From positions 2,356,001-2,420,000 of the forward strand of contig CP143430.1 in assembly GCA_039636795.1 (NCBI GenBank): a stretch of 64,000 nucleotides of DNA, given 5' to 3'. Position numbers and translations under genes: made by a program. Shown piece by piece: positions 16,488 through 62,346 of the stretch. The DNA comes from Micrococcaceae bacterium Sec5.1 (GTDB taxonomy: Bacteria; Actinomycetota; Actinomycetes; Actinomycetales; Micrococcaceae). Positions within the stretch are counted from its first letter, which is position 1. Each line of letters opens with the position of its first letter. The notes under the pieces were generated by a model. The model did no database searches, was not told the DNA's origin, and worked only from the letters and a program-made list of their open reading frames with translations.

Positions 16488-16501
16488 TTGAGGGAGCACA
16501 G

Positions 16502-17401: not shown

Positions 17402-17409
17402 GAACAATC

Positions 17410-18222
17410 ATGCAAAAACCAGCCCGAAGTTCATCTCCTCGTCTTGCACGTATTCTGCTGATCGTCGCCGCCGTTTTGATCGCGGCATGGATGATCGTCC
17501 CCACGCTGGTCATCATCCCCCTGAGCTTCTCGTCCTCGCAGGCCAGCTTCCAGTTCCCACCGCCCGGATGGTCACTTGATCTGTACCGCAACCTCGCAAC
17601 AGGAGAATGGCGTGACGCCGCCCTCAACTCGATCAAGATTGCAGCCGTAGTCACAGTGCTGACTACGGTTCTCGGAACGGCAGCAGCCCTTGGGCTTGAC
17701 CGATCCAAGTTCCCTGGCAAGGGACTCATCACGGGCTCAATGTTTGCTCCCTTGATCGTGCCAACATCAATCCTGGCAATCGGTATCTACGCCGTGTTCC
17801 TGAACTGGAAGTTGAACGGCACTTTCTTGGGATTCGTCGCGGCGCACTCAGTTGTGGCACTTCCAATGGTTTTGGTCTCGGTGTCCTCCAGCCTCAGGGT
17901 CTTCGACCGAAACCAGGAGAATGCCGCTGCCAGCCTCGGAGCAGGGCCACTGACCACCTTCATGAGCGTGACGCTTCCCCAGATCCGTTCAGGCGTCGTC
18001 ACCGGGGCCGTCTTGGCATTCCTGGCTTCGTTCGACGAGGTCGTAGTATCCCTTTTCCTCGCCAGCCCGCGTCTGCAGACCCTGCCGGTCTTGATGTTTT
18101 CGAGCATGAGACGCGAGCTTGACCCGACCGTGGCCGCGGCAGCAACCGTGGTGTTCGCCCTGGCTGCCATCGCCATCCCCATCGTCGCGCTGATACAGAC
18201 AAGGAATCATCATGTCCGCTGA
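17410..18222 (+). CDS. ABC transporter permease (PotC-like)
   Basis: 270 residues from ATG 17410, behind AGGTGAG. Helix 1 is ARILLIVAAVLIAAWMIVPT, followed by LSFSSSQASFQFPPPGWSLD, the standard PotC N-terminal loop. The EAA coupling loop reads ENAAASLGAGPLTTFMSVTL, and DEVVVSLFLASPRLQTLPV is the closing conserved stretch. It overlaps the ATPase gene by 11 bases, showing tight coupling. Confidence 0.9.
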   Translation: MQKPARSSSPRLARILLIVAAVLIAAWMIVPTLVIIPLSFSSSQASFQFPPPGWSLDLYRNLATGEWRDAALNSIKIAAVVTVLTTVLGTAAALGLDRSKFPGKGLITGSMFAPLIVPTSILAIGIYAVFLNWKLNGTFLGFVAAHSVVALPMVLVSVSSSLRVFDRNQENAAASLGAGPLTTFMSVTLPQIRSGVVTGAVLAFLASFDEVVVSLFLASPRLQTLPVLMFSSMRRELDPTVAAAATVVFALAAIAIPIVALIQTRNHHVR

Positions 18223-19351: not shown

Positions 19352-20797
19352 GTGGCAGCAACGACGACAACCATCCTGCCTTTCGTTGGCGGACAGTCAT
19401 ATAGTCCTCAAACCGAGACGACAGACGAGATCCTCGACCCGGCTGATAAATCCATTCTGGCCGTGGTACCTCGTTGCACTCCAGCGGACGTGGACGCGGC
19501 AGTAAGAAGTGCCGACCATGCATTTCGCACCGTCTGGAGGAAAACGACTCCTTCCCAGCGGTCAGCTGCGCTGCTCAGGGTCGCCCATGCCATCGAGGAC
19601 CGCACCGAACAGTTCGCTCTGCTGGAGTCTCAAGACGCCGGCAAGCCCATTGCGGCAGCCCGGAAAGAAATTGCAATTGCAGTGGACCACCTGCGCTTCT
19701 TTGCCGGTGCGGCCCGAACCCTTGAAGGGGCAGTTGCAGGGGAATACCTCCCCGGAATGACTTCCATGCTGCGCAGAGACCCGCTTGGTGTGGTCGGCCA
19801 GATTGCGCCGTGGAACTATCCGCTCCTCATGGCCATCTGGAAGTGCGGGCCGGCCCTGGCCGTAGGAAATACCGTGGTGCTCAAGCCAGCTGAGACGACC
19901 CCCCTGTCGACATTGTTGCTGGCCGAAGTCGCCGGACAGTTCCTTCCCGACGGAGCCTTGAACGTCGTCACGGGTGCAGTTGAAACCGGCGAGGCCGTAG
20001 TTGCACATCCTGATGTACGCATGGTCTCGATCACCGGCTCGACACGGGCCGGCAGGCGCGTGGCAGAACTGTCCGCCACCCAACTCAAGCGTGCGCATCT
20101 GGAACTTGGAGGCAAAGCCCCCTCGATCATCTTCGACGACGTAGATCCAGAAGTCGTGGCCCACGAAGTCGCAGCGGCAGCGTTCTACAACGCTGGGCAG
20201 GACTGCACCGCCGCTACCCGGATGATCGTTCATGAAGCCATATATGACGACTTCATCAAAGCCCTGGCATCAGCTGCTTCGGGGTACACCATGGGGCACA
20301 CGGCAGCTGAAGAAACAACGCTCGGGCCGGTATCCAATGCACTCCAACACGAACGCATAAATGGCGTGCTCGAACGTTGCCCCGGCCACATAGAGAAGAT
20401 CAACGGCAAGGCATCTGATGCCCTCAAGGGTTATTTTGTGGACCCCACCATCCTGGTTGGTGTCGATCAGCGTGACGAAGTCGTCCAGAACGAGATTTTT
20501 GGTCCAGTCGTTACCGCCCAATCATTCAATACTCCAGAGCAGGCTCTCACGCTCGCGAACGGCACCAACTACGCGCTGGCCTCTTCGGTCTGGACAAGCA
20601 ATCTGGACCGTGCCCTGCGCTTCTCCACGGACTTGGAGTTTGGCTGTGTTTGGGTCAACAACCATCTGAGCGTAACGGCCGAATTCCCTCACGGTGGGGG
20701 AAAGGACACGGGAGGCGGAAAAGATCTGTCCACGGCCGTCCTGCATGAGTACACAGAGGCCCGCCACGTCATGTTTGGAAGTCTGGGATCCAAATGA
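19352..20797 (+). CDS. Aminoaldehyde dehydrogenase (PatD/betaine-aldehyde-like)
   Basis: 481 residues starting at GTG 19352 immediately after the ATPase stop. The family motifs are PLGVVGQIAPWNYPLLMAIW, TVVLKPAETTPLST, ITGSTRAGRRVAE, Glu in HLELGGKAPSIIFDD, catalytic Cys in NAGQDCTAATRMIVHE and EIFGPVVTAQSF. The WNYPLLMA/W-K pattern and the C-terminal VWVNNHLSVTAEFPHGG are those of gamma-aminobutyraldehyde/4-(methyl)aminobutanal dehydrogenases. It likely oxidises the aminoaldehyde produced from the imported amine. Confidence 0.9.
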   Translation: MAATTTTILPFVGGQSYSPQTETTDEILDPADKSILAVVPRCTPADVDAAVRSADHAFRTVWRKTTPSQRSAALLRVAHAIEDRTEQFALLESQDAGKPIAAARKEIAIAVDHLRFFAGAARTLEGAVAGEYLPGMTSMLRRDPLGVVGQIAPWNYPLLMAIWKCGPALAVGNTVVLKPAETTPLSTLLLAEVAGQFLPDGALNVVTGAVETGEAVVAHPDVRMVSITGSTRAGRRVAELSATQLKRAHLELGGKAPSIIFDDVDPEVVAHEVAAAAFYNAGQDCTAATRMIVHEAIYDDFIKALASAASGYTMGHTAAEETTLGPVSNALQHERINGVLERCPGHIEKINGKASDALKGYFVDPTILVGVDQRDEVVQNEIFGPVVTAQSFNTPEQALTLANGTNYALASSVWTSNLDRALRFSTDLEFGCVWVNNHLSVTAEFPHGGGKDTGGGKDLSTAVLHEYTEARHVMFGSLGSK

Positions 20798-22965
20798 ATG
20801 CCCCAGAATCTCGACACGAGATCCTCTTCACCCCAATTCAACTTGGGCCTAAAACTGCACCCAACCGCTTCTACCAAACCCCGCACGCCTCCGGCCTTGG
20901 AGACTCAGTAGGTGCTGGTGCCGCCTTGCGCGCCACCAAAGCCGAAGGAGGATGGGGTGTTGTCAACACCGAAGCCGTGAAAATCAGCGTTGAGTCAGAC
21001 ATGAGCGGTTTCCGGACGATGTCCTGGATGATCGACCAGTCCGACGTCCGCAATTGGCAGCGCACCTGCGAGGAAGCCCACCAGCACGGGGCACTCATCG
21101 GCATAGAGCTGCTTGTCACAGCATCCAAGTCCTCCGGAATGGGTGCACGGGAGCCGGCCGGCCGGGTCAGCGCCATTCAGAATCCCGGTGATTTCAACGC
21201 CGGGTACTACGAGCTCGACATGGCCGACATCAAACGTGTGCAGCAGCAGTATGTTGATGCCGCCATCATGTCGCGCGATGCAGGTTTCGACATCGTCAAC
21301 ATCTACGGTTGCGAGGGAGCGGGCCTGCCCCTGGAGTTCCTTTCGCCCTGGTACAACAAGCGAACCGACAGCTATGGAGGATCGTTTGAGAACCGGGCTC
21401 GCTTTTGGCTGGAAACACTGGAAATGGTCCGTAACGCGGTGGGCAACGACGTGGCCATTACCGCTCGTTTCAACCCCTCCGAAACCAACGGCCGCAGCAG
21501 TGCATCGAACCTCGACCCGGAGGGTCTGCGTTTCATCCAGGCAGCAGACCACCTGGTAGATTTCTGGGACATCCAGCTGGGTAGGCCCGGGCAGCTGGCA
21601 TCATCGAGTTCTCCGGCCGCCCGTTACGGCGTAGAGAATTACGCGGGCGAATGGACACGCGAAATCAAAGGGCTGACGACAAAACCAGTCGTTGCCACGG
21701 GGTGGTTTACCTCCGCGGACGAAATGGCAAGGGTGATCAAATCCGGCCAGCAGGATCTGATCGGTGCCGCTCGTCCGTCCATCGCGGACCCATTTCTACC
21801 CAACAAAATACGTTCAGGTGATTTTGACAGCATTCGTGAATGCATCGGATGCAACGTATGCGTTTCACGCTATGACCATGGAAGCCGGATTGTCTGCACC
21901 CAAAACGCGACGCTCGGCGAAGAGTACAGACGAGGCTGGCACCCTGAAAAGTTCAACCCGTCGATCAAGGCCGAAGAAGCTGTCCTGATTGTCGGCGCAG
22001 GGCCTGCCGGATTGGAACTGGCGTCCGTTTTGGCCAGGCGCGGGCACGAGACTGTTCACGTCGTCGACGAGGCCCCGGCCATCGGAGGCCACTATCGCTG
22101 GGTTCCCAAGCTGCCGAACCTCTCTGCATGGTCCAGAATCATTGACTACCGTGAAGGGATCCTTCGGCATCACCCTGGTGTTGAAATCATCACCAACACC
22201 CGGCTCTCCGCTTCGGACATTTTGGACTACGGCGCAACAACAGTCGTCCTCGCCACCGGCTCGTACTGGTCCACTGACGGTCTCAACGGCTGGTCCAGGG
22301 CGGCTATACCCGGCGCCGACGCTTCAACCTCTTGGCAGTTCACTCCGGAGCAACTCATCGCCGAGGAGCACAACATCGATGGGGAAAGCGTCCTCGTCTT
22401 TGACTGCGACGGGTATTACATGGCGCCAAGCGTGGCTGAAGGACTCATGTTGGACGGCAAGAAAGTCACCCTGGTCACCCCTTACCCCGAGGCGGGGCGC
22501 TGGTTGGCCCATACCGGGGAAAAGGACCTCATTCGCCGCCTCCACCAAGCTGGTGTCGTTATCCTGCCATCTACGAATGTCACAGCTGTCGGCTCCGGAA
22601 CGGTACAACTGGCCTCGAGCGGTGTGGACTCCAGAACCTGGTCCATGAATGTCGACGCTGTCGTCTGGGTAACCCAACGCGTGTCCAATGACTCGCTCTA
22701 TCGTGAATTGATGGCCGTCCCGGAGCAACTGACCGCCAATGAGATCGACCTGATGCTTAAGGTGGGCGACTGCAGGGCTCCTCGGATGCATTTGGCCGAC
22801 ACCATTTTTGACGGCCATCGTCTGGGTCGGGAATTTGATTCCGGAAATCCCGCCATCCCGCTGCCTTTCATCCGTGAACACAGGATCCTTGGCTGGCGCG
22901 ATGACGACTACGACGCACCGCTGCGGGAGAGCCGCAGGCTACTTCCGATCGAACCAAAACGATGA
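20794..22965 (+). CDS. Trimethylamine-dehydrogenase-like flavoprotein (N-methyl/secondary amine oxidation)
   Basis: 723 residues, colinear with trimethylamine/dimethylamine dehydrogenases. It has an FMN TIM barrel (residues 1-340), a 4Fe-4S cluster at Cys350, 353, 356 and 368 (CIGCNVC then IVC), and a C-terminal ADP/FAD-like domain beginning LIVGAGPAGLELA. Compared with my recollection of the methylotroph enzyme, the Cys that binds FMN covalently (Cys30) is Ala32 (FYQTPHASG). Two of three aromatic-bowl residues also differ: Tyr60 is Ala61 and Trp355 is Tyr360. FMN is therefore probably non-covalent and the substrate not trimethylamine. It could act on a dimethylglycine-, methylproline- or aminobutyrate-type amine. 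ETF genes downstream are the expected electron acceptor. The start overlaps the upstream stop (ATGA). Confidence 0.9.
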   Translation: MNAPESRHEILFTPIQLGPKTAPNRFYQTPHASGLGDSVGAGAALRATKAEGGWGVVNTEAVKISVESDMSGFRTMSWMIDQSDVRNWQRTCEEAHQHGALIGIELLVTASKSSGMGAREPAGRVSAIQNPGDFNAGYYELDMADIKRVQQQYVDAAIMSRDAGFDIVNIYGCEGAGLPLEFLSPWYNKRTDSYGGSFENRARFWLETLEMVRNAVGNDVAITARFNPSETNGRSSASNLDPEGLRFIQAADHLVDFWDIQLGRPGQLASSSSPAARYGVENYAGEWTREIKGLTTKPVVATGWFTSADEMARVIKSGQQDLIGAARPSIADPFLPNKIRSGDFDSIRECIGCNVCVSRYDHGSRIVCTQNATLGEEYRRGWHPEKFNPSIKAEEAVLIVGAGPAGLELASVLARRGHETVHVVDEAPAIGGHYRWVPKLPNLSAWSRIIDYREGILRHHPGVEIITNTRLSASDILDYGATTVVLATGSYWSTDGLNGWSRAAIPGADASTSWQFTPEQLIAEEHNIDGESVLVFDCDGYYMAPSVAEGLMLDGKKVTLVTPYPEAGRWLAHTGEKDLIRRLHQAGVVILPSTNVTAVGSGTVQLASSGVDSRTWSMNVDAVVWVTQRVSNDSLYRELMAVPEQLTANEIDLMLKVGDCRAPRMHLADTIFDGHRLGREFDSGNPAIPLPFIREHRILGWRDDDYDAPLRESRRLLPIEPKR

Positions 22966-23131
22966 CAAGGCTAAGAGAGCGATACAGCCGCACCTCGCAA
23001 AGTTCAGTTCCCCTGCGGCCGCTCGGACCATGGCTCATTCTCGCAAGGAGAAATCAATCCCACGGTCGCCCTCAGGCAACCAGCAAGGGCTCACAGACCC
23101 AGCACCGTACACCGTCCTTTCAGGAGAAGTT

Positions 23132-23911
23132 GTGAAGATTGCAGTTCTAGTAAAGCAAGTCCCCGATACATGGACAGATCGAAGGCTCGATCTCACCACT
23201 GGGCTGATCGATCGAGTCACCACGGAGCAGGTCGCCGACGAAATTAACGAGCGCGCTCTGGAGAACGCACTCCGAGTCAAGGACCAGGACCCAACGGTTG
23301 AGATCGTAGTTCTATCCATGGGACCCGCTTCAGCCGAAACGGCGTTGCGTCGGGCACTGTCCATGGGAGCTGACTCTGCGGTTCTCGTTGCGGATCCGTC
23401 CTTGGCGGGTTCCGATATGCTTCAGACCGCCCGCACCCTGGCCACAGCCGTGGAGAGTATCCGGCCCGACCTGATATTGGCGGGCAACGAGTCAACCGAT
23501 GGACGCGGTGGACTTGTGCCGGCCATGATCGCTGAAATTCTCCGTTTTCCGTACCTCCCGGCACTGGACACGGTGGAGATCACACCCTCGGAAGTACGCG
23601 GTTCTCTGCAACTGGATGGCGCCATTGCATCTGTCGCCAGTGGCTACCCTGCAGTCGTTTCACTAACCGAACAGAGCGCAGAAGCACGCATTCCCAACTT
23701 CAAGGGCATCATGAAAGCCAAGAAGAAGCCCATCGAGGTGAAGTCCTTGGCTGAGCTCGGAAACGAAGCCGGCCCTGCAACGGCTTCCGCCCGGTCCGTA
23801 ATGGTTGGGGCTACGGCCCGCCCCCCTAAACATGCCGGCACCAAGATTACCGACGACGGCACGGCTGCGCAGCAACTTGCTGCCTTCTTGGTCTCCCGCA
23901 GCTTGCTTTAG
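23132..23911 (+). CDS. etfB: Electron transfer flavoprotein beta subunit
   Basis: 259 residues from GTG 23132 with CAGGAGAAG just upstream; a longer in-frame ORF starting at 22808 overlaps the flavoprotein and is unlikely. KIAVLVKQVPDTW is the classic N-terminus. INERALENALRVKD, LSMGPASAETALRRALSMGA and AGNESTDGRGGLVP form the AMP/FAD-side fold, and PNFKGIMKAKKKPIE is the EtfB signature near the C-terminus. It forms a heterodimer with EtfA and accepts electrons from the amine dehydrogenase encoded just upstream. Confidence 0.93.
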   Translation: MKIAVLVKQVPDTWTDRRLDLTTGLIDRVTTEQVADEINERALENALRVKDQDPTVEIVVLSMGPASAETALRRALSMGADSAVLVADPSLAGSDMLQTARTLATAVESIRPDLILAGNESTDGRGGLVPAMIAEILRFPYLPALDTVEITPSEVRGSLQLDGAIASVASGYPAVVSLTEQSAEARIPNFKGIMKAKKKPIEVKSLAELGNEAGPATASARSVMVGATARPPKHAGTKITDDGTAAQQLAAFLVSRSLL

Positions 23912-23939
23912 AACAACCAATAGACGAAGGAACGCAGTT

Positions 23940-24917
23940 ATGGGCAACGTCCTAGTTTTCATTGAAACGACACCAGAAGGCCATGCCAAGTCATCTGCAG
24001 CGGGCTTGCTTGGTGCTGCCGCTGACCTTGGGACTCCCGTGGCTGTGGCGGCAGTTGCTGAGACAGCAGCCAAGGAATTAGGGGATGTACTTGCCGCCGC
24101 AGGTGCAAAACATATCTACTTACTGGGCTCCCTCACCACAGTGGGGACGGAGCTCGGTAGGGCTGCCGTCGGTGCGCTTGCCCAAGCGGCCGAAGAGTAT
24201 GAGGCAGTGGCAGTCTTGCTCCCTCACACCAACGACAGCAAGAACATTGCAGGCCGCCTGGCCGTCGTGACTGGCGGAGCGGTAGCGGCCGATGCAGTCG
24301 CTTTGCGGATGGAGGAAGGGGAAATAATTGCCGAGCATTCAGTTTTCGGCGGTGACTACACCACCGAGTCCACAGTCGAAGAGGGCCTGATGGTCATCAC
24401 GGTGCGCCAAGGAGCAATCGAGGCCCGGGCCGCTGCCGTGGAGAATCCCGAAGTTCAATTTGCTGAACTGCGGCTGGAAACTGCGCCTGGCGCAAGGATC
24501 CTTTCAGTCGAGGCGCTCAGCACGACCGGTGCGCGTCCGGCGCTGTTGGAAGCCCGGACGGTAGTCTCGGGGGGCAAGGGTCTCGGGTCCCAAGCGAGCT
24601 TCAGCCTGGTCGAGGATTTGGCCGACGCACTGGGCGCTGCTGTGGGCGCCTCAAGGGCAGCCGTCGATGCCAACTACGTGCCCCAAGCACTGCAGGTTGG
24701 ACAGACCGGAGTCACCGTCTCACCCCAGCTTTATGTGGCATTGGGGATTTCTGGTGCCATTCAACATCGTGCGGGCATGCAGACAGCCAAAACGATCGTG
24801 GCAATCAACAACGACGCCGACGCGCCGATCTTCGACATCGCAGATTTCGGTGTGGTCGGGGACGTTTTCACGGTTGTCCCGGAGCTGATTGAAGCGGTCA
24901 AGTCCCAAAAAGACTGA
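23940..24917 (+). CDS. etfA: Electron transfer flavoprotein alpha subunit
   Basis: 325 residues from ATG 23940. The N-terminal half has the weakly conserved ETF fold. The C-terminal FAD domain is clear: VVSGGKGLG, LVEDLADALGAAVGASRAAV, GQTGVTVSPQLYVALGISGA, IQHRAGM, TIVAINNDADAPIFDIADFG and VVGDVFTVVPEL. It carries the FAD that shuttles electrons from the upstream flavoprotein to the respiratory chain. No ETF:quinone oxidoreductase is in the window; the next gene encodes a membrane cytochrome-like protein instead. Confidence 0.94.
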   Translation: MGNVLVFIETTPEGHAKSSAAGLLGAAADLGTPVAVAAVAETAAKELGDVLAAAGAKHIYLLGSLTTVGTELGRAAVGALAQAAEEYEAVAVLLPHTNDSKNIAGRLAVVTGGAVAADAVALRMEEGEIIAEHSVFGGDYTTESTVEEGLMVITVRQGAIEARAAAVENPEVQFAELRLETAPGARILSVEALSTTGARPALLEARTVVSGGKGLGSQASFSLVEDLADALGAAVGASRAAVDANYVPQALQVGQTGVTVSPQLYVALGISGAIQHRAGMQTAKTIVAINNDADAPIFDIADFGVVGDVFTVVPELIEAVKSQKD

Positions 24918-24966
24918 CACCAGCAGAGTAAGTACGTACCACCTCCTAAGGAACGGAACCATTCCC

Positions 24967-26313
24967 ATGCACGGCACAGAACGCGGTGCACAGCCGCCCA
25001 CAGCGCCCCAACGCCGGCGATTGGGCGGGGTGCGGCACGACACGTATCCTGTCAGTTCATCAGACACACCGCAGCCCCAGCCTGAGTCTACGGCTACAGG
25101 GCTGACTCCTTCTGAAGCAACCGAGAGCACTGCGGTTGTACCGGTCCGTCGGCGCATGGGTGCTCCGCGTGCGGTTTCTGAAACGACCAACCGCGCCGCT
25201 CCCACACCGGGACGTGGACGCATGGGCACTCCGGAATCGACAGCATCGGAATCGCCAAATTTCGAGGCTTCGGTCCTCTCCTCGGGGGAAGCGCCCACGC
25301 ATAAGTCCCAGGATCCTCCCTTTGGCCCCGGAACCATAGGGAAACGATCCCAGGATAACCGCCGTCCGACCGCTGCTGGCCGACTGCCAGCGCGTGATGG
25401 TGGGACGCCGTCCCATGGGAAGTGGAAGGCAATGACTGTCAGGCTTCTGGTAGTGGTCGTCATCGCGGTGGTTATCGTGCTGTTAGCTCGCTGGGCCCGA
25501 ACAACACAGCCGGTCGTGGATTTCCTGAGCACATATCCAGGTCATTCCGAACCTGTGGGCCACTCTGCAGCTGGAACACCGGCCTGGGTAAATTGGCAGC
25601 ACTTTCTGAATATGTTCTTCATAGTCCTCATCGTGCGGACCGGACTGCAAGTGCGCCACGAAAAGCGACCAGTTGGGTACTGGAGTCCCACGCCAGGTTC
25701 GTTCTTCGCACCCAAGGGAAACGCCCGGAAGAAAGTCGGTCTGGCCCATTGGCTGCACCAGTGCCTCGATGTGCTGTGGATGACCAACGGCCTGATCTTC
25801 ATAGTCCTGCTCTTTGCCACGGGACGGTGGACACGCATTGTGCCGACGTCATGGGATGTTTTCCCCAACGCTGTCTCTGCAGCCACCCAATATGCTTCGC
25901 TCAACTGGCCGCCAGAGAACGGCTGGGTTTACTACAACGCTCTCCAGGTGTTGGCTTACTGTCTGACAGTTTTCGTTGCGGCTCCGCTGGCTATCGTCAG
26001 CGGGTTCCGCATGTCAACCTGGTGGCCCGACAACACCAGAGCCAATAAGTTCATCACAATCGGGTTTGCCCGGGCGATCCACTTTCCCGCCATGCAGTAC
26101 TTCGCCGGGTTTACGGTCGTGCACGTGCTCCTCGTTTTCCTTACCGGTGCGCTTCAGAACCTAAACCACATGTACACATCCCGCAGCGCCGCAGACTGGC
26201 TCGGGCTCTTGGTCTTCCTTGGCTCGATTGTGGTTATCACCGCGGCCTGGTACCTGACCAAACCTGTCTTCACAACCCCACTCGCCGCAAAGATGGGCAA
26301 AGTTTCCCGATAG
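24967..26313 (+). CDS. Membrane cytochrome b-like protein with long repeat-bearing N-terminal tail
   Basis: 448 residues from ATG 24967. Residues 1-155 are hydrophilic, Pro/Ser/Thr-rich, with three copies of a basic motif: RRRLGGV (16-22), RRRMGAP (61-67) and RGRMGTP (83-89). From residue 157 there are about five membrane helices of the cytochrome b561/hydrogenase b-type fold. Possible haem His lie in NWQHFLNMF, GLAHWLHQCLDV, RAIHFPAMQYF and FTVVHVLLVF. A b-type cytochrome directly after etfBA could pass electrons from ETF or the flavoprotein to the quinone pool. That coupling is inference from position. The tail has no recognised domain. Confidence 0.8.
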   Translation: MHGTERGAQPPTAPQRRRLGGVRHDTYPVSSSDTPQPQPESTATGLTPSEATESTAVVPVRRRMGAPRAVSETTNRAAPTPGRGRMGTPESTASESPNFEASVLSSGEAPTHKSQDPPFGPGTIGKRSQDNRRPTAAGRLPARDGGTPSHGKWKAMTVRLLVVVVIAVVIVLLARWARTTQPVVDFLSTYPGHSEPVGHSAAGTPAWVNWQHFLNMFFIVLIVRTGLQVRHEKRPVGYWSPTPGSFFAPKGNARKKVGLAHWLHQCLDVLWMTNGLIFIVLLFATGRWTRIVPTSWDVFPNAVSAATQYASLNWPPENGWVYYNALQVLAYCLTVFVAAPLAIVSGFRMSTWWPDNTRANKFITIGFARAIHFPAMQYFAGFTVVHVLLVFLTGALQNLNHMYTSRSAADWLGLLVFLGSIVVITAAWYLTKPVFTTPLAAKMGKVSR

Positions 26314-26361
26314 ACCCTTCCGAATTCGCCCAACGTCACTCCAAGAGAAAGAAGTGTCACC

Positions 26362-27567
26362 ATGAACGTTCTCCAAACCCTCGCAGGCAGCCAATTGGTT
26401 GGGCCTGCCGGCCCGCACTCCGACTTCGATGCAGCCGAGTATGACCGTCGACGTGCGGCACTACGAGAGGTGATGCAACGCGAAGGACTGGATGCCGTTC
26501 TCATCAACAACCGCTACACCCACCGCTACTTCTCCGGCCACATCACAAACCTGTGGACGAACCGATCGCGCCCCATATTCTCAGTCTTCACAGCCAGCGG
26601 TGAGAGCTATGCAGTGGCTGTCGGATGGGAAGGCAGGCGCGTCGTCAATACCGCCTCTGATCTGGTTCTCGTTCCCTACGGTGGATCCGGAATGGACGCT
26701 GAACCCAGCCTCGAGGCAGTCAGGGACATTCTTGTCAGCACCGTAGGGGAGAACGTACGCATTGGCTATGAGGGCAGCCTATGGACCAGCTACGAAATCA
26801 CTGAAGCGGAGATGCTCAGCCTGCGCAGCAAGCTGCCAAAAGCAACCTTCCTTGAAATATCCACGCAGCTGGCATTGGTGCGGATGCGTAAGTCCGAAGG
26901 CGAGGTGCAGGCACTTCGGCAGGCCGCCGCCATCAACTCAGCCGCATTCGATACGATTTACACCCCAACAGCCCGCGGTCTGACCGAAGGTGACATCTAC
27001 CGCAAGATGTCGGCGGCTCTGTTTGAAGCCGGCAGCGAGGAAATCTACTTCATGATCCTCAACAAGGGGGACTCCGCCCGCCAATTCAGCGTGGACAACC
27101 CCGTCATCTTCTTGGACTCCGGGGCCGTCTACAAGGGGTACGCATCGGACTTCAACCGATACATGACTTGGGGAAAAGCACCAGCAAAGCTGACCGACCC
27201 GCTGACGCGACTGAAAGAGGTCGCAGAAGTTATTTACGAGGAGGTTCGTCCGGGACGGACATGGAAGGAAGCCAACCAGGCTGTGTATACCCGCAGCATC
27301 AAGATTCTGCCGGAGCTGGCCACCAGTGGCACGAACATCGGGAAATTCGGCCACGGCATCGGCCTTCAGATGCCGGAATTGCCATACTTGTCCGATGATG
27401 ACAACACCGAAATCCTTGAGGGGACCGTGATGTGCATCGAACCGTCACTGCGGCACGACGACATGGGATACCTCACCTCGGTGACCTGTGAAGAAATGGT
27501 CGTCGTCCGTTCACATGGATGCGAACTTCTGTCGGACGGCAAGGGTGCAGAGGTCCGCGAAGTCTGA
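26362..27567 (+). CDS. M24 family metallopeptidase (Xaa-Pro dipeptidase-like)
   Basis: 401 residues. A creatinase/prolidase N-terminal domain (EYDRRRAALREVMQREGLDA) is followed by the pita-bread catalytic domain from about residue 175. All five metal ligands are present: two Asp in FLDSGAVYKGYASDFNR, His in GHGIGLQMPE, Glu in MCIEPSL and Glu in TCEEMVVV. It should therefore be a true metal-dependent hydrolase, unlike metal-free creatinase. Some family members cleave non-peptide substrates such as ectoine or DMSP, so in this amine cluster it could open an amine- or proline-derived compound. ATG 26362 follows AGAAAGAAG. It is last in the operon. Confidence 0.88.
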   Translation: MNVLQTLAGSQLVGPAGPHSDFDAAEYDRRRAALREVMQREGLDAVLINNRYTHRYFSGHITNLWTNRSRPIFSVFTASGESYAVAVGWEGRRVVNTASDLVLVPYGGSGMDAEPSLEAVRDILVSTVGENVRIGYEGSLWTSYEITEAEMLSLRSKLPKATFLEISTQLALVRMRKSEGEVQALRQAAAINSAAFDTIYTPTARGLTEGDIYRKMSAALFEAGSEEIYFMILNKGDSARQFSVDNPVIFLDSGAVYKGYASDFNRYMTWGKAPAKLTDPLTRLKEVAEVIYEEVRPGRTWKEANQAVYTRSIKILPELATSGTNIGKFGHGIGLQMPELPYLSDDDNTEILEGTVMCIEPSLRHDDMGYLTSVTCEEMVVVRSHGCELLSDGKGAEVREV

Positions 27568-53614: not shown

Positions 53615-54862
53615 TGTCCTGTTCCTTAGCCCTGTGTGTTGTTCCTGTGGTCGTTGGTCTTATGCGCCGTTCTGATAGGGGACCTGTGCGCTGGGGTTAG
53701 GGGCTGGAGTGCAACTTGGGGGACCGGGACAGTGCCGGAAAGTTCGGGAGGAAGGAAGCGACGCAGGAGCGCCGAGCGAAGTTTCCGGATCGGTTCCGGC
53801 GCGTGAGCGCCCTGGTTGCGCGGAGAGCCTGCCCAGCGATGATCGGAATATCAGAATGACAAACAGCGGTGTTGCTTCTGGCCTTTCATGGGCGGACGTG
53901 CCCTCCACGCCATGACGTCAGCGGCTACTATCTTGGGCACGGAAGCCACGGGAGTGTTGGTTGGCCAGGGCGCAAGTTGCAGGTGCATCTACGTCAGCGT
54001 TGTGCGCCTGGCATCGAAATGTCAGGCCGCCGCTGACGGATCATTTTCAAGCCGTGGTGCTTATCGGGCGTCGTAGATTTGCCGACGGGACGCGCCAAGG
54101 CGGTGAACCTGGGTGAGTGGTGGGCTGGTTCTGTGCACGCAGACATATGCGCCGTTATCGGCAAGCGGGCTGACTGGCTAAACTTCACGTAGCCGGGTAT
54201 CTGCCTCCCGATCAGTCGATCGACAGCGTTCATACCTTGTTCGACGCACCTCGTGCTCTTGGAGAACTCGCAGCCGTTCGCGGCGTCGCGTTCCATTCTG
54301 ATGCTCTGAAATAGGTAAAGCCGTACTGCAGTCCGAGAGCATCTGCCCCGTTCGGGACCAGATCAGCGCCCGGAGGCAGTGGCGGGACCCGCAATGCCCA
54401 GGCTTGTAGACCACCGTTGAGCAAAACACACCATGAAAGCCGAATCCAACAGCAATAGTTCATTGCCGATGGTGGACGCTCCTTCATTCTGGGTGAGTGG
54501 AGGGCTGGCCCACCAACGGTGAAGGACGGCTGGATTCTAGTCCGGACGGGCTACCGGAGCGAACGGGGAGCCACGGGAATCAAGTGGCAGATGCCTTTTC
54601 GTTGAAGACGATGAAACATCGTCAATATGTTGGAGTTCGTCCTCTACGCGGCCGGTTTAGATGTTGCTTTGGCTGTGACTGGGACCGCGGTTCCGCAAAT
54701 CTCCTAACTCCAATCCAAAGAAGTACCCCATCTGCAGAGGTGAGTCAACGATTCTGGTCGGCTCGTGCCCGGAATTACTCGACCAGTCGTCCAGTCTGCG
54801 AACAGACGTAAATGGAGTTCGCTCCCTACCCTTAGAGGTTGCGCCCATTCGGTGCTCCCCGC
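53615..54862. other. 1.25-kb region without a recognised gene
   Basis: Short open frames in all phases lack protein-like composition or supporting ribosome sites. One stretch ending near 54312 (SIDSVHTLFDAPRALGELAA) could be a gene fragment but matches nothing I know. No repeats or terminators stand out. The gap separates the metabolic part from the nuclease/glycosyltransferase block. Confidence 0.5.
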
Positions 54863-56680
54863 TCATGAGAGCCCGTTAATTTCATCGAGAAGTTGAGCGG
54901 CCGACGACTTCCAGCTCACGAGATCGGCGATTGACTGCCTCAATGTAACAGCTTGGGTGCGGGCAGACTCTGGGTCATCCAACACCTGCTGAATTGCGTC
55001 CGCCCATAGATCGATAGCCAAGGTTGTCACAGAATTACGTGTGGAAATGATCGAGGTCGGAAAGGTGTCGATACCTGAATCCCGCAGGAACTGAGCGAGG
55101 CCCGATTCGGAACTCATTAGTACAGGCACGCCGCTGGCAATTGCCTCATAGGCTGAGAGCCCGAAGCCCTCGTGCCTCGAAGGCATTATCACCACACGGG
55201 CCTGAGCCAAGTCCTGTACGACTTCAACCTCAGAGTCTGAGTAGGGACGGAGAATAAACGTCACTCTTCCTTCGAGAATCGCATCCAGTTGTGATTTGAC
55301 CTCGTTGGCAGCTTCGTCCGGCACGCCTCTGATCACGAGCATCGGAAGGTGCGGCTTGGATGGCGCCCAACTGTCGACAACGCGTAGAAGTGCTTCGGCG
55401 GCAATGTCGATCCCTTTCGAATGGAAATCGTCAGCTCGCCCGATGATTACCACTCGGTTTCTGACAGGCGGGTGCGCACTCGCAGTGTCAAATGTCATGC
55501 GGAGCCCTGGAACGAGGCAGATAACCCGCGATTGCTGTCCTGCGCCTATAAGCTCGTCGCGAATCGACTCAGTTAGGAGTGGACCAATCCCGACAACCAT
55601 ATCGGCCGAACGAGCGAGCTCTCGTTCGAGTCCTCGACGAATGTCGGCGTTTGTCATGTGGGAATCGCCGCCCCGCGTTTCCTTCGCCGCCTCAAGTTGC
55701 TCAGCGTCGGTGTGAACAAAATGCACCCGCCGGGCTTGTGGGAAGAATTGCTGTTGAGCTGCCGCATATGGGCCTAAAAGCCTCCCGTGGCCCACTATGA
55801 CGTCAGGCTCCCACCCTTGAGCGGCAAACACAGGTCTCAGAAGGAGCGCTTCGCGATCACTCAACCCGGGGATCCTGGCGGGGGCAACAAGGGCAACAGC
55901 TGATTCGGAGGCAGATCGAACATCGTCGTCCGACGCGTGGGGCACCATTACGGCGGCTTCAACACCAGCGTCTGAAAGCGCGATAGCCAACTCCCTGTTG
56001 ACCGTCGAGATGCCGCCACGTCCCGAGGCCCACTCATCCGCGACGAGCAGGATGCGTAGCCCCCGAGAGCCAGGCGGCGAGGAACGGGGCGGGTGCTCCG
56101 CCGATCGCTGCGTGCGAAGTCGCCGAAACGCATCCATCGTCGAGTGCAATATGTCCGGCGCTTCTTCGCTGACACCCGAGGCGTCGGCTGCGGCGACGTA
56201 TCGCCAGTGGAGTTGGCGCCCCGCCCAACCAAGGAGAACCGAGTCATATCCGACACCATCTTCCGAACGAAGCAGTCGGCCCACTATCGGTGGTATGGAA
56301 TCAAGATGTCCTGACTGATCCCGCGCTGAGTCCGTAATCAGAAGGACTGCACTGAGCGTGACTTCGCCGCGGAACGAGCGCCGTGTTTCCACAGCGGCAG
56401 CCAGTAGCTCCGCCACGCGATTATTGAAGTTTCTTGCCCAGGACCGATCGCGAAACACCTTGAGTTCGACAGCAATCGGCTTGTCGTCCGGCCGGGGGAT
56501 AAGAATGTCTGGGCCCCGCACTTCACCTCGGAGGTCGTGCTGTTGACCGCCGAGGAGCCCGGAAACTAGCCGCTCAATAGCTAGGTACTGCGCCCTTGCG
56601 CCGGACCCCGTGTCTTGGGTCAACGCCTCTAACAGTTGTTGCTCAGCCGAGTTCTCCATGTCCTCAAGCGTACGGGTCAC
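54863..56680 (-). CDS. PD-(D/E)XK-like nuclease domain fused to a GT4-type glycosyltransferase
   Basis: 605 residues from GTG 56680; ATG 56659 is an alternative and neither has a good ribosome site. Residues 8-165 look like a restriction-endonuclease-type fold. RGPDILI (Asp58), then 13 residues on, AVELKVF (Glu72, Lys74), gives a D-E-x-K site, followed by a strand VTLSAVLLITD. Residues 208-604 are a GT-B glycosyltransferase: RILLVADEWASGRGGISTVN, RRVHFVHTDAEQLEAAK, VVIIGRADDFHSKGIDIA and an EX7E motif at Glu503/Glu511 (RHEGFGLSAYEAIASG). The combination is unusual. It is divergent from the OLD-family nuclease across 291 bases containing a heptamer repeat. Confidence 0.85.
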   Translation of the reverse strand: MTRTLEDMENSAEQQLLEALTQDTGSGARAQYLAIERLVSGLLGGQQHDLRGEVRGPDILIPRPDDKPIAVELKVFRDRSWARNFNNRVAELLAAAVETRRSFRGEVTLSAVLLITDSARDQSGHLDSIPPIVGRLLRSEDGVGYDSVLLGWAGRQLHWRYVAAADASGVSEEAPDILHSTMDAFRRLRTQRSAEHPPRSSPPGSRGLRILLVADEWASGRGGISTVNRELAIALSDAGVEAAVMVPHASDDDVRSASESAVALVAPARIPGLSDREALLLRPVFAAQGWEPDVIVGHGRLLGPYAAAQQQFFPQARRVHFVHTDAEQLEAAKETRGGDSHMTNADIRRGLERELARSADMVVGIGPLLTESIRDELIGAGQQSRVICLVPGLRMTFDTASAHPPVRNRVVIIGRADDFHSKGIDIAAEALLRVVDSWAPSKPHLPMLVIRGVPDEAANEVKSQLDAILEGRVTFILRPYSDSEVEVVQDLAQARVVIMPSRHEGFGLSAYEAIASGVPVLMSSESGLAQFLRDSGIDTFPTSIISTRNSVTTLAIDLWADAIQQVLDDPESARTQAVTLRQSIADLVSWKSSAAQLLDEINGLS

Positions 56681-56821
56681 GCAGATGGTGAGCTGGCCTC
56701 AATCGGCGCTGTATCAGCAGTGCGAGTTTGGGCGGAGAAATGTTGCCTGGGGTAGGAACCAGGAGACACCCTTTTGATGCAGACACTTCCAGGCTCCGAC
56801 GCACTCGCCCTAGGTTATTGT

Positions 56822-56877
56822 TGCTTTGTGCTTTGTGCTTTGTGCTTTGTGCTTTGTGCTTTGTGCTTTGTGCTTTG
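56822..56877. repeat. Eight tandem copies of the heptamer TGCTTTG
   Basis: The unit TGCTTTG is repeated eight times without a mismatch, starting at 56822, 56829, 56836, 56843, 56850, 56857, 56864 and 56871. It lies between two divergent genes, 94 bases upstream of the OLD-family start and 142 bases upstream of the fusion-gene start. Seven-base repeats in promoters can change copy number by slippage and so vary promoter spacing. Confidence 0.9.
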
Positions 56878-56971
56878 GCTTCGCTGCGGCAAGGCTCCGC
56901 CAAAAAGGTCTCCACTGATCAGTGTGACAAACATGTGCTTACAAATAAATTACTAAAAGGGGGACCCTCAC

Positions 56972-58921
56972 TTGCGTCTTGCTAAAGCATCCATCACGGG
57001 TTTCGGACGAATCACGACAGGTACTATCGACTTAACTCCACGGGTCATCGCCGTGGTAGGTCCTAACGAAGCTGGCAAATCGACCCTACTCGATGCGCTA
57101 GTCTATCTGACCGATACCAACACGACACTTGCGCCCTCGCGTCGGTCCCGTACATCTAGGCCCGGCGACGCATCCACGGTGGTCCGAGGCACATACGTTC
57201 TTGAAGAGGCTGAAGTGCAGTCGTTTTCCGACTTAGATTTAGAGGAGCTTCCAAGAACTTTAGTCCTCTCAAGGAGGGCCGGAACAACAACCCGCTACAT
57301 GAAGGTGGAGCCTACGCCCGAGAAATCCAGGCGCAACCTGGCAGATTTGGTTGGTAAATTCCGGCAGACCTGTGGCCAAGACAGCTTGATCGCTTTCGAT
57401 GAACGTGACAGTTCCGATTCAGACGATGACCAGCGAGAGCTTCAGGCACAGGTTTCAAGGAACCTTGATGCATTCCATACTCGAATCGACGAGGCGGACG
57501 AAGAAGACCAGTTGCGGGAAGTGCTCCCCGAACTTCGTGACGATGTCGTCTATCTGCTGGAATTCGCAGAATGGTTCAGGGCTCCCGTAGAGGCTGCTCA
57601 AGCGATTTCCTCCCTCTTGGAGTGGGTGGATGCCCCGGATCCCGCAGACGAAGTTCGTCGCCGGATGGGGGAGATGCTTCCAGTGGCTCTAATCTTTTCC
57701 GACGGCGACCGCAATCTCCCTTCAGCGTTCTCGCTAAGCGAGGACACGCTGCAAGACGTCCCCGATGCGGTTCAAAATTTGGCCGATATGGCTGATCTTT
57801 CGTTGGCGGAATTGTACGAAGAACTCACGGAGGGTAACCGCGCAGCACATGGAACCCGTATCCGGCGAGCCAACATAACCCTGAAACGAAAGTTTCAAGA
57901 TTCTTGGCGTCAATCAAACTTGTCCGTCTCGTTCAACCTGGAAAACACGACACTCTTCATTGAAATCATCCAAGATGAAGATGTGGTGACGCCTATAGAC
58001 GAGCGAAGTGCTGGACTGCGTATGTATGTGGCACTGGTCGCGTTCCTTGAACGCCGTTCACACGAAGTAAAACCGATTCTGCTCATAGACGAGGCAGAAA
58101 CGCATCTCCATCTCGACGCTCAATCCGATCTCGTCGCATCTTTTTCTCGCCAGCAGGAGGTTGCGAAGGTCATATACACGACTCACTCGCCTGCTTGTTT
58201 GCCCGCTGACTTGGGTACCAACATTCGTGCAGTGCTTCCAAGCTCTACGAATTCACAGGAAAGTACCATCGAAAATAGCTTCTGGCGCAATGCGAGCGGT
58301 TTCACGCCGTTGATGATTGCGATGGGGGCTGGGGCTTCGGCATTCGCCACTGCTAGGTTTGTTGTACTTGCCGAAGGTGCAACCGAGATGCTGGTTCTGC
58401 CGTCCCTGATCCGAGCCTCAACGGATTTGGCTGAACTGCCGTATCAGATCGCACCTGGTCTTTCTGAATCGTCGCGGGAAGACTACAAAGACCTAAATCT
58501 TGAGGGCGCGCGAGTTGCCTTCCTTGTCGACAGCGACACCGGAGGCTTGCGGCTGAAGAAAAATCTGATCGCTGCGGGAGTCTCTTCAAAGAAGGTCGTG
58601 GAACTTGGGGAGGTCATGCTTGAACATCTGCTTGATGTTGACACATATAGAGAGACTTTCGTTCAGTTGCTGCGTGAGTGGAATCCCACCATCAACATTG
58701 AGGGTATGCCTACTTTCGACGAGCAAAGTAAAGTATCTCGCCCGAAGCAGTTGGAAGGCTGGGCAACGCGAGTTGCCGGAGTGCGTGTACCCGGAAAGCG
58801 AGACGTTGCGAGTTACCTTGCCGAGCACGGAAAAGCCATTCCTAGCGATGGCGGGCGGGCCATCCTTCAAAGCTTGCACAGCCAGTTGGTATATGCGCTC
58901 GATATCGGTACGAATGGCTAG
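56972..58921 (+). CDS. OLD-family ATP-dependent nuclease (ABC-type ATPase plus TOPRIM)
   Basis: 649 residues from TTG 56972, behind AAAGGGGGA. Walker A is GPNEAGKST (30-38). A poorly conserved, acidic coiled middle follows (SSDSDDDQRELQ, DEADEEDQLREVL). The ABC-type half continues with DERSAGLRMYVAL, Walker B ILLIDEAETHLHL (about 369-381) and switch His in YTTHSPACLP. The C-terminal TOPRIM domain has Glu in FVVLAEGATEMLVLPSL (near 468) and the DxD in AFLVDSDTGG (near 520). Standalone OLD proteins are anti-phage nucleases, while Gabija needs a UvrD partner that is absent here. It is divergent from the glycosyltransferase fusion. Confidence 0.9.
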   Translation: MRLAKASITGFGRITTGTIDLTPRVIAVVGPNEAGKSTLLDALVYLTDTNTTLAPSRRSRTSRPGDASTVVRGTYVLEEAEVQSFSDLDLEELPRTLVLSRRAGTTTRYMKVEPTPEKSRRNLADLVGKFRQTCGQDSLIAFDERDSSDSDDDQRELQAQVSRNLDAFHTRIDEADEEDQLREVLPELRDDVVYLLEFAEWFRAPVEAAQAISSLLEWVDAPDPADEVRRRMGEMLPVALIFSDGDRNLPSAFSLSEDTLQDVPDAVQNLADMADLSLAELYEELTEGNRAAHGTRIRRANITLKRKFQDSWRQSNLSVSFNLENTTLFIEIIQDEDVVTPIDERSAGLRMYVALVAFLERRSHEVKPILLIDEAETHLHLDAQSDLVASFSRQQEVAKVIYTTHSPACLPADLGTNIRAVLPSSTNSQESTIENSFWRNASGFTPLMIAMGAGASAFATARFVVLAEGATEMLVLPSLIRASTDLAELPYQIAPGLSESSREDYKDLNLEGARVAFLVDSDTGGLRLKKNLIAAGVSSKKVVELGEVMLEHLLDVDTYRETFVQLLREWNPTINIEGMPTFDEQSKVSRPKQLEGWATRVAGVRVPGKRDVASYLAEHGKAIPSDGGRAILQSLHSQLVYALDIGTNG

Positions 58922-59786
58922 CGCTGTTCTTCGGGCGGGCGATTGGCCCTGCGGCGACGACAGCCAATCACTCCTGTGCTTTGCGGCCAGCACGACTAGC
59001 CCCTGCTCACCACATAGCGAGTAATATCAGGCATAGTTCTGGCCCGAGCGGAAGGAAGCTTGGGGCATTGAGCGGAGAGTTCCGCCATGTCTTGTCGTTC
59101 CCATCCTCCCCACCTGTGAAGTCGTGAGCCCAATCAGCCCATTCCAACAGAAGATGATGGAGCCCCAGATGGTACTGGCAGCGGTGGATCCCGGGATCAC
59201 CAAACGCGAATATTCCTTTTGTTGAGTCCCTCAAGCAGATCGGAGGCGGCATTCTGGTCGGCTCCTTCATCGTGATTGCGATCGTGGGAGCTGCGATTTT
59301 GTTGGCCAGCAAACTAAGCCAATCCTCGATACCGGCCTCAGGCGGCGGAGCGATCCTGCTGTGGACCGGCCCGGTGGCAGCATTCATTGGAGGCATCAAC
59401 GGTTACATGCTGCTGCCCCGGACGGCGGGATTCCATCGGACATTCAGGGTCGCAGAATGGCCGGGGCAAAACGTGTATCCGGATTTTCTGCACCCACTGG
59501 TTTACTTGGGCGACTCAATCCCGCCGTCGGCTTCAGCCCAAAGCTAAGGTGAGCGACCGAATCGCCGGCGGGACCAGGCAGTCGCGGAATCCTGCGTCCC
59601 CGAGAGCCCGAGCTGCGCGAAGGGGAAGGCCGACTGGAAGCCGTTACCTACGACCTGGGTTTCCGCCACTCCCGGACCCGCATGCCAGAATAAGGCTGAG
59701 GGCGCGGTGCTGGATTGCTTTTTGCTGACTGTGGCCTAGTGAGTGTCATCCTGTGATTTTTGACAGGACACCATAAAGTGGCTGGC
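58922..59786. other. Gap with a possible membrane-protein fragment
   Basis: Most of the region looks non-coding. From about 59158 to 59547 (+) one frame reads PRWYWQRWIPGSPNANIPFV, then a clear membrane helix (LVGSFIVIAIVGAAILLASK) and ILLWTGPVAAFIGGINGYML, ending at TAA 59547. There is no good start codon before GTG 59269, so it may be a truncated gene. I cannot assign a family. Confidence 0.35.
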
Positions 59787-60866
59787 ATGAAGAGCCTGTT
59801 CACTATGAAAGTCGCCGAAGACAAAGCTGATAAGAGATTTGTGCTCATTCGAGACACTAAGGCCGGCGCTCCTGCCCGCCAACTCATGGACCTGATATTC
59901 AGCACGTACACTGACGAGGATAAGAGCTTCGTCCAGGAGTTTCAGTCCAAGGGATTCGATGCTCGTACGTGGGAGCTATCCCTGCATGCTTTTCTCAGTG
60001 AAGCTGACCTCGAACAGATGCCCACGAAGGGTCTGGTTGACTTTCTGGTCTGCGATGGGAGTGAAACAGTAGCCATCGAGGCCGTGACGTCCCAGCCAAC
60101 GGGTGGGGTGTCCTTGGGGGAGGCTACGTCATCCATCGCGGGTCTTGCCCCCGAAAACATCAACGAAGGTATCGCCGAATTTGTGCATCAGTTTGGTAAG
60201 GCCCTGTGGGCGAAAGTGCAAAAGCGGAACGCGAAGGGCCAAGCATATTGGGAGCTCGATGCCATAGTTGGCCGGCCTTTTGTGGTGGCGGTGGAAGCGT
60301 TTCACGGTACAAGTTCCCTCTTCCACTCCTTTGGTTACGCCGGAGAATACCTTTTTGGCCGATCGGCTGCGGTGGCAATGACAAATGGAAAACTTGAGAT
60401 TACTCCGATGATTCTCGACGTCCATGAGTGGAACAACAAGACCATACCCAGCGGAGTCTTCGACATGGATACCTATGCCCACGTAAGTGCGGTGATCTTC
60501 TCGAACAGCTCCTCAACAGCGCAGTTTGGTCGCATCGGCCTTCAGGAGAATCTAGGCACGGGTGGCGTCATGATCTTCAGGACAGGAACGTGCCTGCGGC
60601 ACGATGAGAATGCGGACAAACCCAACCTGTTCGGATACGAAGTTGGCTCTGCGAAGGCGCCCACGGAGTACTTTTCCCAAGCAATTCACGTGTTCCACAA
60701 CCCGAACGCCGCCATACCGCTTCCAGAAGGATTCTTTGGCAACGCTACCGAGCATTTCCGGTTAGATAGCGGACATATTTTGACAACCGTTCGGCAGGAT
60801 TTTGTGCCCGTGAGCAGCGTAACGTCCATTATTCAAATAGCTGATATCCCCAAGACCAACGAATAG
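59787..60866 (+). CDS. Uncharacterised protein, possible PD-(D/E)XK-like fold
   Basis: 359 residues from ATG 59787; a TTG at 59760 is an alternative. Residues 30-110 contain FVQEFQSKGFDARTWELSLH (Glu in a helix-strand region) and GLVDFLVCDGSETVAIEAVT. The latter is an Asp-containing strand followed by a Glu-containing strand, a spacing seen in restriction-endonuclease-like folds but with Val instead of the final Lys. The rest (PFVVAVEAFHGTSSLFHSFG, YAGEYLFG, MTNGKLEITPMILDVHEWNN) is alternating strands and helices with no known motif. The gene stands alone after the OLD-family gene. I do not recognise its function; proximity suggests defence or a mobile-element role. Confidence 0.7.
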   Translation: MKSLFTMKVAEDKADKRFVLIRDTKAGAPARQLMDLIFSTYTDEDKSFVQEFQSKGFDARTWELSLHAFLSEADLEQMPTKGLVDFLVCDGSETVAIEAVTSQPTGGVSLGEATSSIAGLAPENINEGIAEFVHQFGKALWAKVQKRNAKGQAYWELDAIVGRPFVVAVEAFHGTSSLFHSFGYAGEYLFGRSAAVAMTNGKLEITPMILDVHEWNNKTIPSGVFDMDTYAHVSAVIFSNSSSTAQFGRIGLQENLGTGGVMIFRTGTCLRHDENADKPNLFGYEVGSAKAPTEYFSQAIHVFHNPNAAIPLPEGFFGNATEHFRLDSGHILTTVRQDFVPVSSVTSIIQIADIPKTNE

Positions 60867-61157
60867 AGACGGCTCTGTGGGCGTCATACAGGTCGCAGAG
60901 GCCTCGTCTGTGCCGGCGCGGCCACACATGCACTGCGGTGTCGGAAGCCAGCTGGCCCTTTGTTCCCTTTCTGTGGATGTGGGGCCTTGTCGGATGGCAA
61001 AAGAGGGCCTGGAAATACTCCACGCTGTGCCCTTTGGACCGAGACGTACTTCACCGGACTGGTTCGGGTTCTGTACGTTGTGGGGAATTTCCCTGTGAGT
61101 AAGCAAGCACGCGCGTTGAGTCCACCTCATTCGGTGTTCGATCGAGCAAAAGAAGGA

Positions 61158-61176
61158 GTGTGGACAATGTCCACAC
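61158..61176. promoter_or_regulatory. Palindromic site, copy 1
   Basis: GTGTGGAC-AAT-GTCCACAC is a perfect 8-base inverted repeat around 3 bases. It closely resembles the site at 61638-61656. No gene starts behind it, so it looks like an orphan operator or partition-type site. Confidence 0.5.
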
Positions 61177-61268
61177 CTCTCGGCCCGGACTGGCCAATAG
61201 AGTCGCCGGACTGCCCCCGATTCCGCATGTTTCCGCCACTTCCCAGTGTTTTCAAGGGTCGGAATCCC

Positions 61269-61290
61269 GTTCGAGTCCCACCTCGGGCAC
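61269..61290 (+). tRNA. 3' end fragment of a tRNA-Leu gene (probable attachment site)
   Basis: GTTCGAGTCCCAC followed by CTCGGGCAC is exactly the T-loop, 3' T-stem and 3' acceptor strand of actinobacterial tRNA-Leu (acceptor GCCCGAG...CTCGGGC). The 5' T-stem, anticodon arm and 5' acceptor are missing upstream. A rho-independent terminator follows six bases later, as it would behind a native tRNA gene. This is the usual scar at the far end of an element inserted into a tRNA 3' end. Confidence 0.55.
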
Positions 61291-61295
61291 GGCAT

Positions 61296-61319
61296 ACCCC
61301 CTCGTCAGAGGGGGTTTTT
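61296..61319 (+). terminator. Strong rho-independent terminator
   Basis: ACCCCCTC pairs perfectly with GAGGGGGT around the GTCA tetraloop, followed by TTTTT. It is directly behind the tRNA-Leu fragment. Confidence 0.85.
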
Positions 61320-61637
61320 GCTTTAACGTGTTGACAATTGTTGACACGAGTCTCTGATGTGTGGTGCCGGCTTGTTGCCTGGCCGCAGGTTGGCCTGTTC
61401 AGTTGTGGGGGAGCGGGTTCAGGGTCGTGGCGTGTGGGCCCTCCGCTGGCTCTCTACTGGGGCCATGGATTCCTCTCGCGGTGCGGCCGGGTAGGTCGTG
61501 GTTGGCCTACTCCCTCTTCATGGATGGGAGGTCTTGGCGCGACATGACTTCGGGGCATGGCGCCGAAACCACCGGACGTCGGCGCGTTCTTGACGTGAGG
61601 AAGCCGGGTTAGGCGCTGCTTTGTCAGGCCAAAAGGG

Positions 61638-61656
61638 GTGTGTACAGTGTGCACAC
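61638..61656. promoter_or_regulatory. Palindromic site, copy 2
   Basis: GTGTGTAC-AGT-GTGCACAC pairs at 7 of 8 arm positions and shares the frame GTGTGnAC-nnT-GTnCACAC with the site at 61158. It lies between no recognised genes; the downstream frames look non-coding. Confidence 0.45.
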
Positions 61657-62346
61657 TTAAGTCTGCTTTATTGCGACTATTGCCAATCATTGGCTTGTCC
61701 CTCCTTAGCCTGCATCTGCCCCTTCATTGCTTGGGAGTGGCCATTGCGACATGACAGCGACGCGCAAGCTCGCCATGGCCAGGGCTATTTCGGGGCGATA
61801 GTTATTTAGCTAGGGCCGACCGAGTGCTTCGGTTGGTTTCGTGCGTGCCGTCGAGTCGACGATACGAATGACAAGGCGAGTGGTCTCCCCACAGATTTAT
61901 AGGCCGTAGCTCGGCCTCCGGAACACTACTGCCGACGCGATTGTCTGCTGAGCATGCGGAAGTCGAACAGTTTGCCGATATGGGCCCATATGTCGTAGCC
62001 TTCAGGAACGGGTCAGGGTGTCAGGTTGGGTTGTAAGAATTCCTTGAGCAACTGTCAGTGAATGAGAATCCGGACCCTATTCTGACAGCCCTTGGTCACC
62101 TGCCTGACGTCAGGTTGGGGTGTGCCCTATTCTCATGGGGGATCAGCTCACCGGTCTAAAGGGTAGTACCGCAGGGCTAATCCTTGGCTTCTGCTTATTC
62201 GGGTCACGGGCCGTCTCGTCCTGATCGAATTGGCATCCGCTACTAATCTGCTCATCCGAGCCTGTTCGTCGATGGCCACTTTCGCTTCGGTAAACCGCGA
62301 ACAGCAATGAGCATGCTGACAATAGCTATGGCCCTGGGAGCCGTCG

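Follow-up and report, generated by a model that had tools for sequence, protein, structure and literature searches.

GT4 glycosyltransferase (GT) domains were predicted in 2021 to serve in the immunity of bacteria and even of corals; the accessible portion of that work proposes their targets in general terms only (PMC8195603). PD-T7-1 proved protective in Escherichia coli in a functional selection (Vassallo et al. 2022, PMC9519451), and both PD-T7-1 and PD-T7-5 are assigned a PD-(D/E)xK domain in PMC10952713, as far as the accessible portions of these two papers go. Here, we describe a stretch of 64,000 nucleotides (the window; positions 2,356,001–2,420,000 of the 5.43 Mb one-contig genome of Micrococcaceae bacterium Sec5.1) with three open reading frames (ORFs): ORF1 joins a restriction-fold-like N-terminal domain to a GT4-conflict glycosyltransferase, ORF2 encodes an OLD-like ABC ATPase with a C-terminal TOPRIM domain, and ORF3 encodes a PD-T7-1 homologue. 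We consider it reasonably probable that they form a small composite defence island beside an integration scar, with three independent defence genes, ORF1 being a single-gene GT4 immune protein. This explanation is built on matches to known families, sequence motifs, the conservation of the domains, the presence of defence genes nearby and the lack of linkage in the genomes sampled.

The ORFs lie at 54863–56680 (minus strand), 56972–58921 (plus strand) and 59760–60866 (plus strand), where a preliminary description of this DNA had placed them, and all are long and open. ORF1 and ORF2 are divergent, as it had also reported, and are separated by a 291-base spacer (56681–56971). The stretches flanking the three ORFs contain short open frames alone. 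The defence-like character proposed earlier for the block was upheld, all three genes falling in, or recurrently beside, defence families.

ORF1 is listed with 605 amino acids and has 598 in its database form (P0004), which starts at an ATG seven codons downstream. Its GT4 domain occupies approximately residues 209–600 (54881–56056, minus strand), is full length and resembles MshA; it matches Pfam PF20706 (GT4-conflict) with 381.5 bits (383 in the comparison within its own genome, where the other scored GT4 genes reach at most 104.8). Scores of at least 294 bits on PF20706 were found in four of 396 genomes of the phylum, its own included, the next being about 105 (four best candidates scored per genome). 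In an alignment of 33 rows, comprising ORF1 and 32 relatives picked from 80 non-self matches, H298, H323, R415, K422, E504 and E512 are present in every row. R415, K422, E504 and E512 correspond to the retaining-GT4 signature, an E-x7-E motif with donor-binding R and K, their individual roles being those usual in the class. The GT glutamate named in the preliminary description is E504 (with E512) and not residue 503.

The N-terminal domain, approximately residues 1–200 (56081–56680, minus strand), carries the D58, E72 and K74 motif, in agreement with the nuclease-like/GT fusion announced earlier. The helix and strand order given by secondary structure prediction is compatible with a PD-(D/E)xK core, and the strand at residues 69–77 contains E72 and K74. 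E-x-K is kept in 25 of the 33 rows and D58 in 28. Each of the 32 relatives shares a higher identity with ORF1 in its GT part than in its N-terminus. A profile of this N-terminus, built from close relatives, matched 70 of 81 sequences, own included, with an E-value no higher than 1e-4; among these 70 are the 34 that had served to train it. ORF1 is probably a single-gene defence protein in which a rapidly evolving domain of nuclease type stands in front of an unchanging GT4 engine.

Among the eleven sequences that did not match the profile, P0039, P0040 and P0042 have GT-only lengths, and P0072, P0078, P0079 and P0080 possess an N-terminus that gave no match. In P0081, P0082 and P0084, GT4 begins almost at the protein start, followed in P0081 and P0084 by what reads by eye as a STAND-type NTPase. 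In the metagenome protein P0083, three hydrophobic stretches are present and GT4 is preceded by PF18159, which we take to be the S_4TM membrane effector domain. In a genome of the same class (L144), CATRA-N is followed by GT4, adjoining a CHAT protein; the ORF chosen at L146 is on the strand opposite to the GT4 match, and that locus is therefore uninformative about partners. Such partners are consistent with the 2021 account of GT4 in conflict systems, in the portion available (PMC8195603).

The exchange of the N-terminus in P0083 and L144, together with an invariant GT core behind a diverging front, would also suit an arrangement in which sensing or switching falls to GT4, with a swappable effector at the N-terminus, nuclease in ORF1 and membrane-type in P0083. 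We give this arrangement a low probability, although it fares best among the alternatives. The presumed catalytic residues of GT4 are complete in all 33 rows, as expected for a working enzyme, and in P0081 and P0084 GT4 stands before the NTPase, in the usual effector slot; moreover, section 15 of PMC8195603, as accessible, treats GT4 as the effector.

The ORF1 fusion is rare and patchy, being found in two of 295 genomes of the family at 1e-30 and in one of 396 genomes of the order at 1e-40, with its own genome included in both counts. Eighty loci with relatives were retained; the first eleven (L007–L017) align across most of the GT domain, and L087 was added to them. By the N-terminal profile, nine are fusion loci (L007–L014, with L013 at 1.2e-6, and L087); L015 was dropped as a fusion locus, the profile recognizing no fusion N-terminus there or in L016 and L017. 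The nine include Mycolicibacterium, Microbacterium and other Microbacteriaceae, Curtobacterium and Paractinoplanes. A phage or plasmid home for the fusion was rejected: no phage record matched, the viral contigs held no fusion relative, and six rhizobial plasmids matched the GT part of ORF1 only, at about 31% identity.

Clear defence genes adjoin five of the nine fusion loci (L008, L009, L010, L011 and L087), or four of eight independent ones, since L009 and L010 have a common flank. The neighbours differ. L008 has Type I restriction-modification and GmrSD. In L009, a Type III restriction gene is accompanied by a methylase-like relative, and L010 shares this neighbourhood at its cut edge. The methylase and specificity genes of a Type I system adjoin the fusion in L011. 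In L087, a SIR2 protein resembling Dsr1 stands with a Cap4-nuclease-like protein whose STAND match is under the cut-off. In L011, the Curtobacterium fusion copy (L011:9728–11808) is spread over two reading frames and thus appears broken, and the neighbouring Type I restriction-modification genes are likewise in pieces. PADLOC matches at 1e-5 were obtained for 14 of 25 flank ORFs of the nine fusion loci (three L015 ORFs, one with a match, being omitted) and for one of ten control ORFs of the window; as the flank ORFs had been selected for size and proximity, this difference is indicative only.

Several observations weigh against ORF1 as a nuclease-fronted defence protein. E-x-K is absent from eight of the 33 rows. 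No significant nuclease family was obtained for the N-terminus: XhoI was matched by three of eight members, the best at E 0.0091, under the curated cut-off, PADLOC REase_II was matched weakly (0.011), and the search of solved-structure profiles gave chance-level matches only. The fold-match lists of ORF1 are occupied by its GT domain. The N-terminal profile match of L014 is weak (2.6e-4), and no clear defence gene was found among the scanned ORFs of four of the nine fusion loci, L007 and L013 showing weak partial matches, L014 one weak match and a generic AAA ATPase, and L012 none; the ORFs scanned were a selection by size and proximity, not a random one. At its cut-off, PF20706 also catches ordinary GT4 enzymes, in 306 of 396 genomes and in 13 of 14 controls; it was thus rejected as a specific marker at that level, and the score, not the family name, carries weight.

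This breadth of PF20706 and the likeness to MshA would accommodate ORF1 as a GT4 of everyday metabolism or of the cell envelope that has gained an inert additional domain and stands in the island by chance, metabolic cargo being possible in islands. We think this improbable in view of the patchy distribution described above, of the gap between ORF1 and the other GT4 genes of its genome on PF20706, and of the restriction or SIR2 genes that adjoin the fusion in several genera.

Under the preferred explanation, a single-gene GT4 immune protein within a composite island, the front domain, with a predicted restriction fold and nuclease-type residues in most relatives, may contact or cut foreign DNA. 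For the GT4 part, we propose the attachment of a sugar to a target, either of the invader or of the host, by which the infection would be stopped; this is the anti-phage effect predicted for ORF1. A more ambitious proposal, which we put forward as a long shot, is that ORF1 founds a kind of single-gene actinobacterial immunity in which the restriction-fold domain would bring a working glycosyltransferase to foreign DNA, sugars being put on that DNA or on a bound protein to stop the infection. This would be the inversion of a known strategy in which phages add sugars that hide their own DNA. ORF2, as a stand-alone OLD-like ATPase-nuclease, and ORF3, as a PD-T7-1-type nuclease, would each act alone.

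The preliminary description had regarded the fusion and the OLD gene as a possible single system, to be sought as genes co-occurring within 5 kb. The two genes point away from each other across 291 bases that include a heptamer array, which would suit a two-gene defence system under shared control. However, tblastn of ORF2 and ORF3 against flanks of up to 10 kb of 12 loci (L007–L017 and L087, nine of them with the full fusion; some flanks, as in L010 and L017, end at contig edges) found neither gene. The OLD profile had no match in ten genomes (L007–L015 and G091, comprising the nine with the fusion and that of L015), where 82 of 155 candidates were scored in three large genomes, and the five positive controls were all found. 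Linkage was thus conserved in none of the nine fusion loci by flank and in none of their nine genomes. Across the 295 genomes of the family, own included and with at most four best candidates scored per genome, the fusion occurs in two, OLD in nine and ORF3 in three, and the own genome is the sole overlap. Relatives of OLD stand beside varied defence genes, an outcome that the preliminary description itself had set against the pairing.

A single coincidence favours the pair: for a fusion match (P0010) and an OLD match (P0087) alike, the longest contig listed measures 9,442 bases. Their source labels differ (jgi and lgn), and chance alone produces at least one common value of this type in 28% of the simulations that use the full lists, or in 0.6% when these are restricted to the top 25 by the top 13, a cut set after the match was noticed. 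Control of ORF1 and the OLD gene as one system from their spacer is very improbable, the pairing being rejected on the flanks, the search of fusion genomes and the 295-genome counts, within the scope given above; the earlier suggestion that the pair senses glycosylated targets drew no evidence from this analysis.

ORF2 (649 amino acids, TTG start) has the ATPase motifs Walker A (G30–T38), Walker B (D373 and E374) and H-loop (H405), and the TOPRIM residues E468, E472, D520 and D522, motif names that we apply as commonly understood. These motifs agree with the OLD-type ATPase-TOPRIM protein of the preliminary description, and a structure match was obtained with 6p74, a solved OLD family nuclease of Thermus scotoductus. 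With its ABC ATPase motifs and the E and DxD of TOPRIM, ORF2 resembles OLD nucleases, yet among PADLOC models AriA of PARIS fits it best (4.3e-21), ahead of Old (2.4e-13), and its TOPRIM match (PF20469, 15.9 bits) is under the cut-off of 23.2. It also matches the fused AriAB model (1.5e-11), but no AriB-type gene was present among the neighbours scanned. Nor was a GajB-type helicase, as in Gabija, found among the neighbouring ORFs scanned, which did not include the small ORFs at 59007–59728. The OLD search gave no match in plasmids at 1e-30 and two weak matches in viral contigs. At L107:7146–14818, an OLD relative belongs to a run of genes on one strand with overlapping ends, together with a CBASS-type cyclase and the genes of a Type III methylase and nuclease.

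ORF3, listed with 368 amino acids (359 in its database form, P0205), had been described as an unknown protein, a label it loses through its PADLOC matches to PD-T7-1 (E 1.9e-80) and PD-T7-5 (2.8e-38). Residues 11–359 of ORF3 cover positions 108–448 of the 452 of the PD-T7-1 model, the first 107 of which have no counterpart in ORF3. D94 and E107 are invariant across 18 aligned sequences, ORF3 included. Compared with a PD-(D/E)xK motif, V109 stands at the place of the K of E-x-K, and the next residue, T110, is invariant. Pfam and NCBIfam gave no match to ORF3 up to E 0.1.

The scar near the end of the block, also seen earlier, was located at 61,249–61,311 (plus strand), where 22 bases are identical to the 3′ end of the intact tRNA-Leu(CAA) at approximately 2,088,356–2,088,439 of the genome; an integrase match lies about 600 bases past the end of that tRNA. 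No intact tRNA was found in the 64-kb window. The remnant is part of a repeat with four diverged genome copies, at 2.25, 2.28, 2.42 and 2.52 Mb (genome 2252744, 2281726 and 2522889, and window 61100–62000), which are 73–87% alike over 164–894 bases. All four include the tRNA-Leu 3′ end, which two of them keep exactly and the other two with a single mismatch, and the copies also carry a terminator-like hairpin, the palindrome GTGTGGACAATGTCCACAC being exact in two. The repeat and its tRNA-Leu ends are read as repeated integration at one tRNA. The GC content is 0.56–0.58 over 54,001–62,000 of the window, against 0.62–0.65 across the preceding 4 kb.

The spacer between ORF1 and ORF2 contains 8.7 copies of the heptamer TGCTTTG (56822–56881, plus strand), and all six genome matches to three exact copies fall within this array. 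Its copy number may act as a switch of expression. The array was discarded as a conserved control element: in none of 19 related loci does a period-7 array lie within 1.5 kb of the focal gene. Elsewhere in the window, a long same-strand gene run extends over 15288–27567; its fourth gene (18212–19351) matches mad3 of MADS (4.7e-31) and mad8, and judging by these matches the run may be another defence system. Overall, the three-gene block appears to be a mixed defence island of an ordinary kind, in which one gene, ORF1, is of interest.

A literature search returned no paper on GT4-conflict, on GT4 in anti-phage defence, or on a defence-island GT with a restriction endonuclease or effector. In section 15 of PMC8195603, as accessible, the pairing of GT4 with a restriction fold is not mentioned, and it may appear in the figures of that work. 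With two domains in about 600 residues and a catalytic centre that does not vary, ORF1 is compact and offers a simple handle for testing glycosylation as an immune weapon. Compared with the GT4-conflict systems (PF20706), ORF1 has the same domain, defence genes at five of its nine loci and relatives with CATRA-N and PF18159; it differs in its partner, a restriction-fold-like N-terminus in place of STAND or ternary machinery. What is new here is thus the fusion of a restriction-fold-like domain to GT4 within a predicted class of conflict proteins, ORF2 and ORF3 being ordinary members of their families.

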